DNA from: a bacterium
GTDB taxonomy: Bacteria; BMS3Abin14
Reading direction: 5' to 3'
NCBI GenBank assembly: GCA_029210545.1
Contig: JARGFV010000096.1
Location: forward strand, 1-9,500
Length of the DNA: 9,500 nucleotides
The notes below the pieces were generated by a model. It was given only the letters and a program-made list of their open reading frames with translations. It was not told the DNA's origin and ran no database searches. A program made the translations under genes and the position numbers. How positions within the stretch are numbered: the first letter of the stretch is position 1; every line of letters begins with the position of its first letter. Shown here piece after piece: positions 236 through 9,185 of this stretch.

Positions 236-251
236 TGGCACAAACCTTGCT
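236..251 (+). promoter_or_regulatory. sigma-54 (RpoN) -24/-12 promoter of the ccm operon
   Basis: The sequence TGGCAC-N5-TTGCT at 236-251 matches the sigma-54 core consensus. The invariant GG (237-238) and GC (249-250) are separated by exactly 10 bp, the required spacing. Transcription would start near 260-262, leaving a leader of about 26 nt before the ATG at 288. No sigma-70 promoter of comparable quality was seen between here and ccmE. The match is direct sequence evidence; actual use by RpoN is inferred. Confidence 0.72.
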
Positions 252-2925: not shown

Positions 2926-3630
2926 ATGATGGGAGCCTTCCTGAGAGGTCGACAGCTCAGTAAACGGTACGGCCCCATCCACGCCCTGCGGGGAGTGGAC
3001 CTATCCGTGGCCAGGGGGGGGTCCCTGGTCCTTCTCGGCCCGAACGGGGCAGGAAAGAGTACCCTGCTGGGCATTCTCGCCGGTCGGATCAGGCCCACGG
3101 AGGGTTCCGTTGTCCTGGAGGGCGGCGAGATCCGGTCCGGCACTGCGGCACGGACCAGGACCGGCTACCTGGCACACGCCTCCCTCCTCTACCCTGGATT
3201 GACTGCCCTGGAGAACCTCCGGTTCACAGGTCAGCTTTACGGGGTCAAAACTCCTTTGGCACGGGCCGAGGAGCTCCTCGATTTCGTGGGGCTGACCAGG
3301 CGCGGGGACGATCGGGTGGGAGGCTTTTCCCGGGGCATGCAGCAGCGCCTTTCCATCGCGAGGGCCCTGGTCCACGACCCCGAGCTTATCCTCCTCGACG
3401 AACCGTTCTCGGGCCTGGACTACCACTCTTCCCGGTCCTTTGCCGACGACCTGGCCCATCTCAGGGACGGCAGGAGAACCATTGTCGTTGCCACCCACGA
3501 CATGGATGCGGTGAGCATCATGGGGGAGGATGTCGCTGTCATGGACCGGGGCCGGATCGTTCACCTGGGAGCGGCTCCCGAAGACGTCAGGGGGCTGTAC
3601 ACGGGCCTGCTCGGTCAGGAGGGGTCGTGA
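2926..3630 (+). CDS. ccmA: heme exporter ABC ATPase CcmA
   Basis: CcmA is the cytoplasmic ATPase of the CcmABCD complex, whose ATP hydrolysis releases heme-loaded CcmE from CcmC. The 234-aa protein has all ABC motifs: Walker A GPNGAGKST (38-46), signature SRGMQQR (135-141, the form usual in CcmA), Walker B LILLDEP with D158 and E159, and the H-loop His191 in VATHD. There are ATG codons at 2926 and 2929. GAGG at 2919-2922 gives 3 and 6 nt spacing, so 2929 may be the real start. It follows the CcmI-like gene by 12 bp and overlaps ccmB. Position between ccmF and ccmB rules out most other ABC families. Confidence 0.93.
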   Translation: MMGAFLRGRQLSKRYGPIHALRGVDLSVARGGSLVLLGPNGAGKSTLLGILAGRIRPTEGSVVLEGGEIRSGTAARTRTGYLAHASLLYPGLTALENLRFTGQLYGVKTPLARAEELLDFVGLTRRGDDRVGGFSRGMQQRLSIARALVHDPELILLDEPFSGLDYHSSRSFADDLAHLRDGRRTIVVATHDMDAVSIMGEDVAVMDRGRIVHLGAAPEDVRGLYTGLLGQEGS

Positions 3631-4295
3631 GGGTCGCCCTGGCTATCTTCCGCAAGGACCTCGCCCTGGAGTTCCGTGGAGGAGAGGTCGTGGTTACCCT
3701 GGCGGTCTTCTCCTTCCTGATCCTGACCCTTTTCTCTTTCACGGCGGTGCCGGGGTCCCGGGCGCCGAGGGAGATGGCGCCCGGAATCTTCTGGATCGCC
3801 TGCCTCTTCGCCGGCATCCTCGGCCTGGGAAGGAACTTCGACCGGGAGCGGGAGAACAGCTGCTTCACGGCTCTCCTGCTGGCGCCTTGTGACCGTGTCC
3901 AGGTCTACCTTGGGAAATGTTTTTCAACCCTGGCTTTCATGGTCCTCTTTCAGGCGGCCCTGTGGCCGCTGTTCGGCGTTCTTTACGGTTACAGCCCCGT
4001 CAGGGGGGCAGTAACCGCGTGGATGGGGATACTCCTCGGGGATATCGGATTTGTGGCCCTGGGGGTCATCCTATCGGCGGTCACCATCCACGTGCGGGGC
4101 AGGGAGATCATCCTCCCCCTCCTCCTGTTGCCCCTCTGCCTGCCGGTCCTGGTGGGAGGGGTCCGGATCATCTCCCTTGCCGTGGAAGGCGCGCCCTTCG
4201 GCGGGGCCGCTCTCTGGATGGGGCGTCTTGCGGCCTTCGATGTGATCTTCCTGGTGCTGGGGTCGTTGTTGTTCCCGCTGGTGGTGGAAGAGTGA
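3627..4295 (+). CDS. ccmB: heme exporter membrane subunit CcmB
   Basis: CcmB is the membrane partner of the CcmA ATPase. The 222-aa length is typical. About six hydrophobic segments are visible, roughly at 21-41, 52-68, 98-120, 127-152, 160-185 and 200-219. The loop DRERENSCFTALLLAP (about 72-87) matches the conserved cytoplasmic coupling segment of the family, which reads FxxDxxxGxLxxLLxxP in relatives. The start is GTG 3627, which overlaps the ccmA stop (GTGA), with AGGAGG at 3617-3622 upstream, so translation is probably coupled to ccmA. The gene ends just before a repeat-filled spacer. Confidence 0.92.
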   Translation: MRVALAIFRKDLALEFRGGEVVVTLAVFSFLILTLFSFTAVPGSRAPREMAPGIFWIACLFAGILGLGRNFDRERENSCFTALLLAPCDRVQVYLGKCFSTLAFMVLFQAALWPLFGVLYGYSPVRGAVTAWMGILLGDIGFVALGVILSAVTIHVRGREIILPLLLLPLCLPVLVGGVRIISLAVEGAPFGGAALWMGRLAAFDVIFLVLGSLLFPLVVEE

Positions 4296-4410
4296 ATCTC
4301 AGACCTCATACCTCAAATCTCAAAGGGACGGATGAGATCTTGTCAGCAATGTGTTGCGTATTGATTCTGGATATTTAAAATGGTTTCTCTGAGATGTGAG
4401 ATCTGAGATG
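4296..4410. repeat. two opposed arrays of 7-bp repeats between ccmB and ccmC
   Basis: Immediately after the ccmB stop lie four tandem heptads of the form AYCTCAN (4296-4323: ATCTCAG, ACCTCAT, ACCTCAA, ATCTCAA). At 4390-4410 are three heptads in the opposite sense (TGAGATG, TGAGATC, TGAGATG), and a lone TGAGATC is at 4333-4339. The reverse complement of 4390-4410 matches 4295-4315 at 17 of 21 positions, so the transcript could fold into a long imperfect stem. The last heptad supplies the ATG of ccmC. This is the only gap inside the otherwise overlapping ccmE-to-lipoprotein gene run apart from the 12 bp before ccmA. Confidence 0.75.
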
Positions 4411-5085
4411 AAGAAATTTACTGACATAGCCTTACCTGTTATCGCCGCGGTGGCCATCATTTTCGCTCTGGCCGGTGCGCTTCTCATCGCCCCAACGGAA
4501 AAGGCAATGGGCCACGTCCAGCGCATCTTCTATTTCCACCTGGGCAGCGCGGCGGCGGCTTTCGCCGGTTTCACCCTTGTGCTGGCCGCGTCGGTGGCTT
4601 TCATCCTTTCGCGCAGGATGGTCTTCGATTCGGTGGCTTTCGCCGCCGGCGAGGTCGGTGTTCTTTTCTGTTCTTTCGTCCTGCTCACCGGCCCCATGTG
4701 GGCAAGGCCTGTGTGGGGGCAGTGGTGGGTATGGGATCCGCGCTTGACGACCACTTTGTTCCTGTGGTTTCTCTACGTGGGTTACCTCGTGCTCCGGCAC
4801 ATGATGCCCGGCTACCGGGGTGCCATGGCCGGTGCGGTGTTCGCTATCCTCGCCTACGTGGATGTCCCCGTTGTATATTTCTCGGTGCGGTGGTGGCGAG
4901 GGATCCACCCGAGGGTCCTGCAGGGCGGAGGCGGCCTGGACCCGGCCATGATCCCGCCCCTCCTGGTGTGCGTGGCCGCATTCGGGCTCCTCGCGATGGC
5001 GTTGATCCGGGAGCGTTTCGAGATCCAGCGCCTGGAGGAGAGCGTGTCCCGGGCCGAGGATACTCTGGAGGTTGAGGCAAGATGA
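4408..5085 (+). CDS. ccmC: heme exporter protein CcmC
   Basis: CcmC is the membrane protein that presents heme at the periplasmic face and loads it onto CcmE. The protein is 225 aa with about six membrane segments. The tryptophan-rich WWD motif GQWWVWDP is seen with W106 to D110. Candidate axial histidines are H44 (FYFHLGSA) and H167 (WWRGIHPR), matching E. coli H60 and H184. The chosen start ATG 4408 gives the family-like MKKFTDIAL; in-frame GTG 4396 is possible. The ribosome site is poor: GTGAG at 4396-4400 is the best candidate, and both it and the ATG lie inside the TGAGATS repeats, which could make initiation depend on RNA folding. Its stop overlaps ccmD (ATGA). Confidence 0.93.
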   Translation: MKKFTDIALPVIAAVAIIFALAGALLIAPTEKAMGHVQRIFYFHLGSAAAAFAGFTLVLAASVAFILSRRMVFDSVAFAAGEVGVLFCSFVLLTGPMWARPVWGQWWVWDPRLTTTLFLWFLYVGYLVLRHMMPGYRGAMAGAVFAILAYVDVPVVYFSVRWWRGIHPRVLQGGGGLDPAMIPPLLVCVAAFGLLAMALIRERFEIQRLEESVSRAEDTLEVEAR

Positions 5086-5237
5086 AAGACCTGACGTACC
5101 TGTTCTCGGCGTTCGCCATCATCTGGGCCGGTGTCGGTCTTTACCTCGTGCGCCTTGCTGCCCTGAGGAGCGATCTTCAGCGGCGTGTCGCCAGGCTCGA
5201 AGAAAGGGCTGCTGAAAGGAACAGGGTTGATGGGTAG
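5082..5237 (+). CDS. ccmD: heme exporter small subunit CcmD
   Basis: CcmD is a small single-helix membrane protein needed to release heme-bound CcmE from the CcmABC complex. This 51-aa reading frame starts with MKDLTYLFSAFAIIWAGVG, has one membrane helix at about residues 6-24, and continues with a strongly charged helical tail rich in Arg and Glu (residues 29-48). This is the classic CcmD layout and length. It starts at ATG 5082, overlapping the ccmC stop by 4 bp, and its last 8 bp overlap the start of the lipoprotein gene. CcmD sequences diverge strongly, so the call rests on topology, size and position right after ccmC. Confidence 0.85.
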   Translation: MKDLTYLFSAFAIIWAGVGLYLVRLAALRSDLQRRVARLEERAAERNRVDG

Positions 5238-5757
5238 AAAAGGGCTGTCCGCACTTCTTCTCGTCACCGTCCTTACTGTCGGCCTTGCTGCCGGCTGCAC
5301 CTCCGGGGAAAACAACGGCCAGAGCCTGTCGGGCGGGGCGCCCGACTTCCTCCTTCCGTCGGTGGACGGCTCCATGGTCCGCCTGTCCGATCACAGCGGC
5401 AAGGTGATCATCGTGGATTTCTGGGCCACATGGTGTCCTCCCTGCGAGGAGATGATCCCGGTGCTTTCGAAACTCCACCGTGAGTTTTCTGAAAAAGGGC
5501 TGGTGGTCCTCGGCGTGGCCATGGACCGGGAAGGGCTCGGGGTCCTGGGCACTTTCGTCCACGAAAAGATGATCCCTTACAAGGTCCTCATGGGAGATGA
5601 CAAGGTGACCAGGTCCTTCGGGGGAGTATCGTCCATACCAACCCTTTTCATCATCGACCGCGAGGGCAGGCTGGTCAGGAAGCTGATGGGGTACCACACC
5701 TTCGGGCAGCTGAAGGACCAGATCAGCAGGTATCTGGAGCAACCTGCTGAGAGCTAG
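5230..5757 (+). CDS. TlpA/ResA-type thiol-disulfide oxidoreductase lipoprotein (CcmG-like)
   Basis: This is a thioredoxin-fold protein probably tethered in the periplasm, where it would reduce apocytochrome CXXCH disulfides before heme attachment. From ATG 5230 it is 175 aa. A signal peptide of basic then hydrophobic residues ends in the lipobox LAAGC with lipidated Cys23. The thioredoxin domain spans about 40-170 and has the active site WCPPC (C69, C72) and a cis-proline in SIPTLF (P137). WCPPC and the lipobox look like TlpA/ResA rather than E. coli CcmG, which has a membrane helix and WCPTC. In-frame GTG 5185 would bury the signal peptide, so 5230 is preferred; AAAGGA at 5215-5220 is its likely ribosome site. 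It overlaps ccmD by 8 bp, which supports a Ccm role. Confidence 0.88.
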   Translation: MGRKGLSALLLVTVLTVGLAAGCTSGENNGQSLSGGAPDFLLPSVDGSMVRLSDHSGKVIIVDFWATWCPPCEEMIPVLSKLHREFSEKGLVVLGVAMDREGLGVLGTFVHEKMIPYKVLMGDDKVTRSFGGVSSIPTLFIIDREGRLVRKLMGYHTFGQLKDQISRYLEQPAES

Positions 5758-5858: not shown

Positions 5859-6443
5859 ATGAAAGACAACAAAATCGTCGTCCTCGTAGTGGCCGCCCTT
5901 TTCGTCGGGCTCATGACCGGCATCCTGGGACCCAAACTCTTCGGCAGGAAGCCGGCCGTCTCCACGGTCTCCGGACCGGCGCCTGCCCAGCTGCCTCCTC
6001 AGGCTCCCGGGACCAACTACACTCTGAAGATCAGCGAGCTCAAGCGCCGCCTCGAGACCAACCCCAACGACGTCGGCCTCCTTGTCCAACTGGGCAACAC
6101 CTATTTCGACAGCCACATGTACCCCGAGTCCATCGAGGCCTACGAAAAATCCCTTGCGCTCAAGCCCGGCAACCCCAACGTCCTCACTGACCTGGGGGTC
6201 ATGTATCGGAGGAACGGCCAGCCCGAGGAAGCCGTCAAGAGGTTCCGGATGGCTGCCGAGGCCGATCCGACGCACCCCCAGAGCCGAATGAACCTGGGCG
6301 TCGTACTCTTTTATGACCTGCAGGACGCAATAGGCGCCCGGCAGGCCCTTGAAGGGCTTTTGAGCATCTACCCGCAGGGCCCCAATGCCGACCAGGCCCG
6401 GCTGCTCATGGCCGAGATCGACAAAATGACGGGGGGGCAATAG
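5859..6443 (+). CDS. membrane-anchored TPR protein, likely apocytochrome chaperone (CcmI C-terminal-like)
   Basis: The 194-aa protein has an N-terminal membrane anchor (about 6-24), a Pro/Ala-rich linker (about 31-52), and at least three tetratricopeptide repeats at about 72-105, 106-139 and 140-174, with typical positions such as LGNTYFDSHMYPESIEAYEK and LGVMYRRNGQPEEAVKRF. TPR domains bind peptides, and the C-terminal TPR domain of CcmI/CycH holds the apocytochrome C-terminus. Being last in the ccm cluster, this protein could fill that role together with the CcmI-like 76-aa protein. A strong ribosome site GGAGG (5847-5851) stands 7 nt before ATG 5859, so unlike its neighbours it does not rely on translational coupling. 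A general TPR lipid-anchored or scaffold role cannot be excluded. Confidence 0.85.
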   Translation: MKDNKIVVLVVAALFVGLMTGILGPKLFGRKPAVSTVSGPAPAQLPPQAPGTNYTLKISELKRRLETNPNDVGLLVQLGNTYFDSHMYPESIEAYEKSLALKPGNPNVLTDLGVMYRRNGQPEEAVKRFRMAAEADPTHPQSRMNLGVVLFYDLQDAIGARQALEGLLSIYPQGPNADQARLLMAEIDKMTGGQ

Positions 6444-8414: not shown

Positions 8415-9134
8415 TCAGGTTTCAGCGGAATTGAGGAGACTGGCCACGTACCGGTCGATGGCCTCCTGGTCGTCCTGTTTGATGGTGAGAAATTTGATTC
8501 CGATTCCCTGGTGACTGGTGTCGTCCAGTTCCCCGAGCCAGACGACCAGAGCATCCCGCACCTCAACCTCTCTTTCGCCTGCACCGGAGTCGGGCAGCGA
8601 GAACCGGATCTGGCACATGTCACCTTTCACAGGGGTAATGTTGCCGCTGATGAAAGCTCCCCCGCCACCTAGTGAGTGGATCGTCCCTTCCTTGCCCGTG
8701 CCTTCCCATATGGCGGTGCAGGGCAGGGAAACAGAGGTTCTGGCCCAGGATCGGACAGCTATTCCAAGGAACGCTTCCACTAGAGCGAGGGCCTGGTTCC
8801 TGCGGATCGGTTTGAAGATGATGCCGTCAAAACCTGCGGCCGCCAGCTGAAGCCTCGACGCCTCCCGCTCCCCCGAGCTGACGATGATAACGGGAATGTG
8901 AGCCGTGGCAGGGTCCGCTTTGAGTATCCTGCAGACATCCAGCCCCATCATGTCTTCCATGATCTGGTCGAGGAGAATGAGGTCCGGGTTTACCGAGCGT
9001 GCCTTGTCAATGGCCTGCTTGCCGGACGAGGCCGTGTGGATGTCGAACCGCTCCCTGCCCAGGCAGGAGATCTGCTGGCTGAGGAAAAATTCGTTGTCGT
9101 CAACGATCAGAACGACATTTTTCTCATCGGCCAT
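8415..9134 (-). CDS. response regulator: receiver domain fused to PilZ-like domain
   Basis: The 239-aa cytoplasmic protein joins a CheY-like receiver (about 6-122) to a PilZ-type domain (about 125-236). The receiver has the acidic pocket D12-D13, phosphoacceptor D56 (LILLDQIM), S86 or S87 in IIVSSG, and K108 in FKP, so it should be phosphorylated by a histidine kinase. The second domain begins with RSWAR (128-132), fitting the RxxxR c-di-GMP motif, and has HSLGGGGAFI (153-162) where PilZ usually shows (D/N)xSxxG, so binding may be altered. Start ATG 9132-9134 gives MADEKNVVLIVDDNE and has GAAGG 7 nt upstream; an in-frame GTG at 9185 would add 17 unlikely residues. No output gene or kinase is adjacent, so its pathway (motility, adhesion or other) is unknown. 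Confidence 0.88.
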   Translation of the reverse strand: MADEKNVVLIVDDNEFFLSQQISCLGRERFDIHTASSGKQAIDKARSVNPDLILLDQIMEDMMGLDVCRILKADPATAHIPVIIVSSGEREASRLQLAAAGFDGIIFKPIRRNQALALVEAFLGIAVRSWARTSVSLPCTAIWEGTGKEGTIHSLGGGGAFISGNITPVKGDMCQIRFSLPDSGAGEREVEVRDALVVWLGELDDTSHQGIGIKFLTIKQDDQEAIDRYVASLLNSAET

Positions 9135-9185
9135 ATCAAGGCCTTCTCTCCCCGTCTGCATTCCGCAGATAAATTTTACTCTCAC

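Follow-up and report, generated by a model that had tools for sequence, protein, structure and literature searches.

The ccm (cytochrome c maturation) operon at the beginning of the 9,500-nucleotide stretch analysed here (hereafter the window) is probably driven by a lineage-specific sigma-54 promoter, a reading to which we assign a probability of about 0.87. The promoter stands out from chance because a -24/-12 element is conserved at the same place, upstream of ccmE, in four related genomes. The original prediction of a sigma-54 type promoter for ccm is further supported by the RpoN and the many enhancer-binding proteins encoded in the genome of the window. This arrangement suggests that cytochrome assembly is switched on by a dedicated activator rather than left on; were the operon strictly activator-gated, heme attachment capacity would be a commanded response. 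The comparisons below were made on a family set of 12 genomes, in which the window's own genome is named G000.

The -24/-12 element and the ccm operon

A GG-N10-GC element, TGGCACAAACCTTGCT, is located at positions 236-251 of the window on the forward strand. Its TGGCAC and TTGCT parts are separated by the spacer AAACC, with 10 bases between the GG (237-238) and the GC (249-250), and 36 bp (252-287) separate the element from the ATG of ccmE at 288. The sequence, coordinates, GG-N10-GC spacing and 36-bp gap of the original prediction were all found correct on re-check. Compared with the consensus YTGGCACG-N4-TTGCW (mrNrYTGGCACG-N4-TTGCWNNw in its full form, established from 186 promoters and quoted in PMC2725144), the sole departure is an A for G at the seventh position. 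The pattern TGGCACNNNNNTTGCW (TGGCACN5TTGCW) was matched with zero mismatches only once in the window, at 236-251, while 6 matches were obtained with up to 2 mismatches, versus 3.6 expected. The ORF of ccmE has an alternative start, TTG at 264; the ATG at 288 matches the start of the ortholog in the relative G003. The features of the promoter region and of the operon are as follows.

157-173, +: candidate enhancer site GGGTGCAATTTCTGCAC; conserved block in G003
236-241, +: -24 element TGGCAC; motif match, TGG and A invariant in an alignment of seven promoters
247-251, +: -12 element TTGCT; motif match, TTGC invariant in the same alignment
262, +: predicted transcription start, 12 bases past the C of the -12 GC, from sigma-54 promoter geometry
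288-710, +: ccmE, CXXXY (LAKCPSKY) heme-chaperone variant; NCBIfam CcmE E 7e-24 and motif
716-2686, +: ccmF; TIGR00353 E 9e-131
2683-2913, +: 76-aa small membrane ORF in a CcmI-like position; syntenic in G003 (47%), no family match
2926-3630, +: ccmA, ABC ATPase; TIGR01189 E 1e-34 and place in cluster
3627-4295, +: ccmB; TIGR01190 E 5e-20
4396-5085, +: ccmC; TIGR01191 E 1e-36
5185-5757, +: ResA/CcmG-like thiol-disulfide oxidoreductase; ResA subfamily E 1e-26
5859-6443, +: CcmI/NrfG-like TPR protein; the presumed operon ends with this gene

The System I set is complete for CcmE, CcmF, CcmA, CcmB, CcmC and a CcmG-type thioredoxin. Because all the Ccm proteins score below the NCBIfam curated cut-offs, the operon is classified, from its sequence, as a divergent System I. 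The canonical HXXXY motif is absent from its CcmE, and CPSKY (CXXXY) is found instead, a Cys replacing the heme-binding His in every family member checked. In this it resembles the variant System I with a CXXXY CcmE of D. desulfuricans, D. vulgaris and archaea (PMC9084895, PMC3884852). No CcmH-type CxxC protein was detected in the window, as in the archaeal form of this variant; such a protein is present in G007 and in a second group of ccm operons of the family, hereafter type-2. D. desulfuricans, unlike the window operon, retains and needs ccmH (PMC9084895). Sigma-54 control is not described for variant System I in PMC9084895 or PMC3884852.

A single CcmE is encoded in G000. The original prediction had placed all c-type cytochrome assembly under this promoter, which goes too far since ResB (System II) genes are present at two places in G000, C13:16124-17389 (L334) and C12:17117-18268. 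In G003, G004 and G009, ResB is carried by the contig of the heme-sensor kinase described below, at most ~13 kb away from it.

Conservation of the element upstream of ccmE

In the 350 bp upstream of the ccmE matches, sites were ranked by a simple consensus score whose weights were set by hand. The top-ranking site was consensus or near-consensus in 5 genomes of the family, G000, G003, G004, G007 and G009, spread over four genera. It was perfect in G003 (TGGCACGGGGCTTGCT, CcmE 73% identical) and in G007 (TGGCACGATCGTTGCT, CcmE 40% identical), and read TGGCATGAGGATTGCT in G009 (CcmE 56% identical) and TGGCATGGGGATTGCT in G004. In each of these four relatives, the site is the strongest near ccmE, lies within ~200 bp of it in the correct orientation and is positioned between ccmE and the upstream gene. 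The GG/GC pair, whose lack of conservation among close relatives would have refuted the original prediction, is thus kept in all four. Upstream of ccmE, G000 and G003 have little sequence in common besides the element and the block at 157-173.

Although ccmE was found in 10 of the 11 other genomes of the family, the site was present in only 4 of them. The element is absent from the type-2 ccm operons of the family, in which ccmE is ~34-44% identical and which in several cases comprise CcmH. Beyond the family, the threshold was reached at 2 of 79 distant ccmE loci, sampled from many phyla, compared with 1 of 79 for the reversed control. This lack of enrichment led us to reject a link between sigma-54 and ccm that would hold for bacteria in general. 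As the element is missing at type-2 operons and not enriched at distant loci, the sigma-54 arrangement at ccm is, in these sequence comparisons, a lineage-specific one and not a general property of ccm.

In G004, the ccmE located behind the sigma-54 promoter (L136:7080-7289) is an in-frame 69-aa remnant without its central part, and another contig of G004 carries a further ccm operon, whose ccmE is longer.

RpoN machinery and candidate regulator

G000 encodes one copy of RpoN (PF04552, E 4e-60) and about 17 enhancer-binding proteins (17-18 PF00158 proteins). A PrpR-type activator of G000 provides a positive control: a perfect site, TGGCACGCCCCTTGCT, and then a further gene cluster come after it. 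We infer RpoN binding, the start site and the co-transcription of the ccm unit as follows. RpoN holoenzyme would bind 236-251 as a closed complex, to be remodelled by an AAA+ enhancer-binding protein bound upstream, for which 157-173 is the candidate site. Only upon this remodelling would transcription start, near base 262, yielding a transcript made of ccmEF, the 76-aa ORF, ccmABC, resA and the TPR gene. The original prediction also held that ccm operons are not usually described as RpoN-dependent, and we agree: no sigma-54-dependent ccm operon was returned by our literature search, which was not exhaustive and hence is no proof of novelty.

The listed activators of the relatives (in part for G010) were compared with those of G000. 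One of them, located on contig C24 of G000 (L125; L325:3081-4433), is an NtrC-type activator of REC-AAA-HTH_8 organisation whose orthologs at 75-77% were confined to G003, G009 and G004; in the other genomes, the top matches reached 44-47%. The adjoining kinase (L325:350-1879) was found in G000, G003, G004 and G009, as well as in G007 as a contig-end fragment, and in none of the other seven genomes. The kinase-bearing genomes are exactly the five with a sigma-54 site before ccmE. This co-occurrence of kinase and ccm site across 12 related genomes, found by screening ~17 candidates, is suggestive but no proof. In G003, the kinase (C49) and the activator (C47) are on different contigs, both near a contig end.

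The sensor part of the kinase, flanked by two hydrophobic segments (10-28 and 184-202), contains CRRCH at 145-149, and CxRCH is invariant across the five genomes. It matched 3b42 (GSU0935) with an E-value of 0.0018 and PF21563 with an E-value of 8e-5. We thus predict a periplasmic Cache/PAS-like domain with a putative heme c motif. The c-heme Cache/PAS sensors (GSU0935, GSU0582 and the DUF3365/Tll0287 sCache_heme domains) likewise have a CxxCH periplasmic domain between two transmembrane helices (PMC8396549, PMC12889525). The best studied of them are chemoreceptors or stand-alone domains, whereas the output of the C24 protein, with its predicted heme, would be a histidine kinase beside an NtrC-type activator. 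A redox-linked switch has been described for GSU0935 of G. sulfurreducens (PMC8396549), and related heme-Cache domains bind NO (PMC12889525). Neither the neighbourhood nor the candidate regulator gives any indication of nitrogen, which was discarded as the signal; the best candidate signal is redox or heme.

That the C24 activator and its partner kinase, the best candidates identified, activate the ccm promoter is a tentative proposal, which we hold at somewhat below even odds. Against it, neither a C24-type kinase nor a C24-type activator was found among the 660 contigs of G011, whose ccm is of the same type (76%, with the promoter off the contig end). No ortholog of the C24 activator was found in G007 either, where a different pair adjoins ccm. 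This G007 pair consists of a HAMP/HisKA kinase and an NtrC-type activator, encoded immediately before the operon and in its orientation, and the perfect sigma-54 site separates the activator gene from ccmE, a layout that speaks for the sigma-54 promoter itself.

The 14-heme cytochrome cluster

Beside the C24 activator (L325:5294-12098) are encoded an NHL-repeat protein, a cytochrome with 14 CxxCH motifs and MtrC-like domains, a redoxin and a PPIase. They form a conserved cluster resembling an extracellular electron transfer module. The activator adjoins the 14-heme cytochrome operon in four genomes, and the NHL gene has a sigma-54 element of its own, TGGAACGAAACTTGCG in G000 and G003 and TGGTATGGAACTTGCG in G009 and G004. 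Upstream of the NHL gene, we also identified a palindrome, TGGGGCAAATACCGCA, of which a variant form is kept in all four genomes.

Since the kinase-activator pair adjoins the sigma-54 promoter of the 14-heme cytochrome operon as well, a joint induction can be proposed, in which a redox-type signal would induce the cytochromes and the cytochrome assembly machine together. The corresponding feed-forward circuit would lead from the heme-c sensor kinase to the NtrC-type activator and on to the sigma-54 promoters of both the 14-heme cytochrome and the ccm operons; we regard it as speculative, with the odds against it. If it exists, cytochrome assembly would be under the command of one of its own products, the sensor, and a heme-bearing kinase in command would join redox sensing, multiheme cytochrome production and assembly in one loop. 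What is new here is a candidate heme-sensing two-component system through which a multiheme cytochrome operon and ccm would be coupled.

The candidate upstream activator site

The candidate site at 157-173 contains an inverted repeat, GTGCA-N5-TGCAC, at 159-173 and is located 77 bases before the -24 element. Both the block (GTGCAACTTCTGCGC) and the 77-base spacing are kept in G003. Similarity among enhancers upstream of ccm is modest. When the enhancer-like palindrome of the NHL promoter was searched for upstream of ccm, its best match fell on the block at 157-173 in G000, a weak resemblance (p 0.04), and on a conserved block in G009 (p 0.08) and G004 (p 0.06). In G003 and G007, the best match was not on such a block. 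An enhancer motif common to the ccm and 14-heme cytochrome promoters, with p between 0.04 and 0.33 in these sequence matches, is therefore suggestive only.

Motif frequency and alternative explanations

Across the 2.72-Mb G000 assembly, we counted 4 instances of the exact pattern and 2 of its reversed control; with at most 1 mismatch to the fuller consensus, the genome-wide counts were 16 and 25, respectively. Because such sites are not in excess of the reversed control in G000, a single site alone is weak and not beyond chance genome-wide. For the same reason, a genome-wide sigma-54 regulon deduced from the strict consensus was dropped. The background rate, obtained by counting sites of equal quality over 531 kb of sequence from the family, amounts to 1.7e-5 per position and strand, or 0.0025 per 150-bp upstream region, a value probably inflated because much of this sample adjoins activator genes. 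Another of the 4 exact G000 sites, TGGCACCGATGTTGCT (L142:4648-5293, on contig C64), is located 60 bp before a redoxin/TlpA-like gene, which could be a member of the same regulon.

With counts of this kind, the element before ccmE might be a chance resemblance, ccm being transcribed from another promoter type or from farther upstream; the contig begins only 235 bp upstream of the element, and an upstream gene could be missing. We consider this very improbable, since best-scoring and correctly oriented sites, two of them perfect, are found in four more genomes whereas ~0.0025 would be expected per genome. Moreover, plsY, which was not found in G000, is divergent from ccm in G003, G009 and G004, leaving no upstream read-through there. 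A real sigma-54 promoter could also work in tandem with a sigma-70 promoter, the latter ensuring basal ccm expression and the former a condition-specific boost. Dual sigma-70/sigma-54 promoters are documented, for instance in the lactate operon of D. vulgaris (PMC6456213), and one sigma-70-like match is present at 40-67 of the window (CTGACA-16-AATAAT). Such matches are however at chance level (1 found versus 0.7 expected) and, apart from the sigma-54 element and the block at 157-173, the upstream region shows poor conservation, so that we find a tandem arrangement unlikely.

If the sigma-54 promoter is real, its activator may still be an enhancer-binding protein other than that of C24, for example one of the ~16 others of G000, and we give this nearly an even chance. 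At least 16 further activators are available in G000, no strong enhancer motif is common to the ccm and NHL/cytochrome promoters, and the activator directly upstream of ccm in G007 has only ~41% identity to any activator of G000. Its best identity in G000 being only ~41-42%, this G007 protein was itself rejected as a universal activator. As the neighbouring pair of G007 suggests, the ccm promoter may have swapped activators between genera. On the other side, the C24 activator is the one, among the profiled activators of G000, whose distribution best matches that of the sigma-54 ccm promoter, and its kinase occurs in all five genomes with such a promoter, G007 included, and in 0 of the 7 others.

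Comparison with known systems

In E. coli, the ccm genes are under the same respiratory control as nrf. Expression of nrf in this species depends on FNR and Nar proteins (PMC12285233). RpoN of Geobacter sulfurreducens is a global regulator that touches the cytochromes of extracellular electron transfer, and its regulon has the same promoter architecture as that described here, with the consensus TTGGCACGGTTTTTGCT (PMC2725144). G. sulfurreducens is a multiheme-cytochrome-rich anaerobe, and the term 'ccm' does not occur in the main text of that study. The sigma-54 regulome of D. vulgaris comprises the DVU3142 regulon, with the octaheme cytochrome ohcBAC, and the NrfS-NrfR system controlling nrfHA (PMC4641369, PMC6456213). 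As proposed here for G000, operons encoding multiheme cytochromes are activated there by enhancer-binding proteins acting at -24/-12 promoters. The reported D. vulgaris activators differ in that they target cytochromes and not the heme-attachment machinery, 'ccm' being absent from the main text of PMC4641369.

Other features of the window

A response-regulator protein with a C-terminal extension is encoded at 8415-9185 on the opposite strand, downstream of thyX, and is not part of the ccm unit. In the leader of the window, where no terminator and no structured RNA were found, short AT-rich repeats and a hairpin (GCTAAGAA...TTCTTAGC) are located at 77-118. Repeats of the GTGAACAGTGAACGGT type are present in G003 (L003 840-930). 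Repeats such as these may account for the contig breaks next to these operons.
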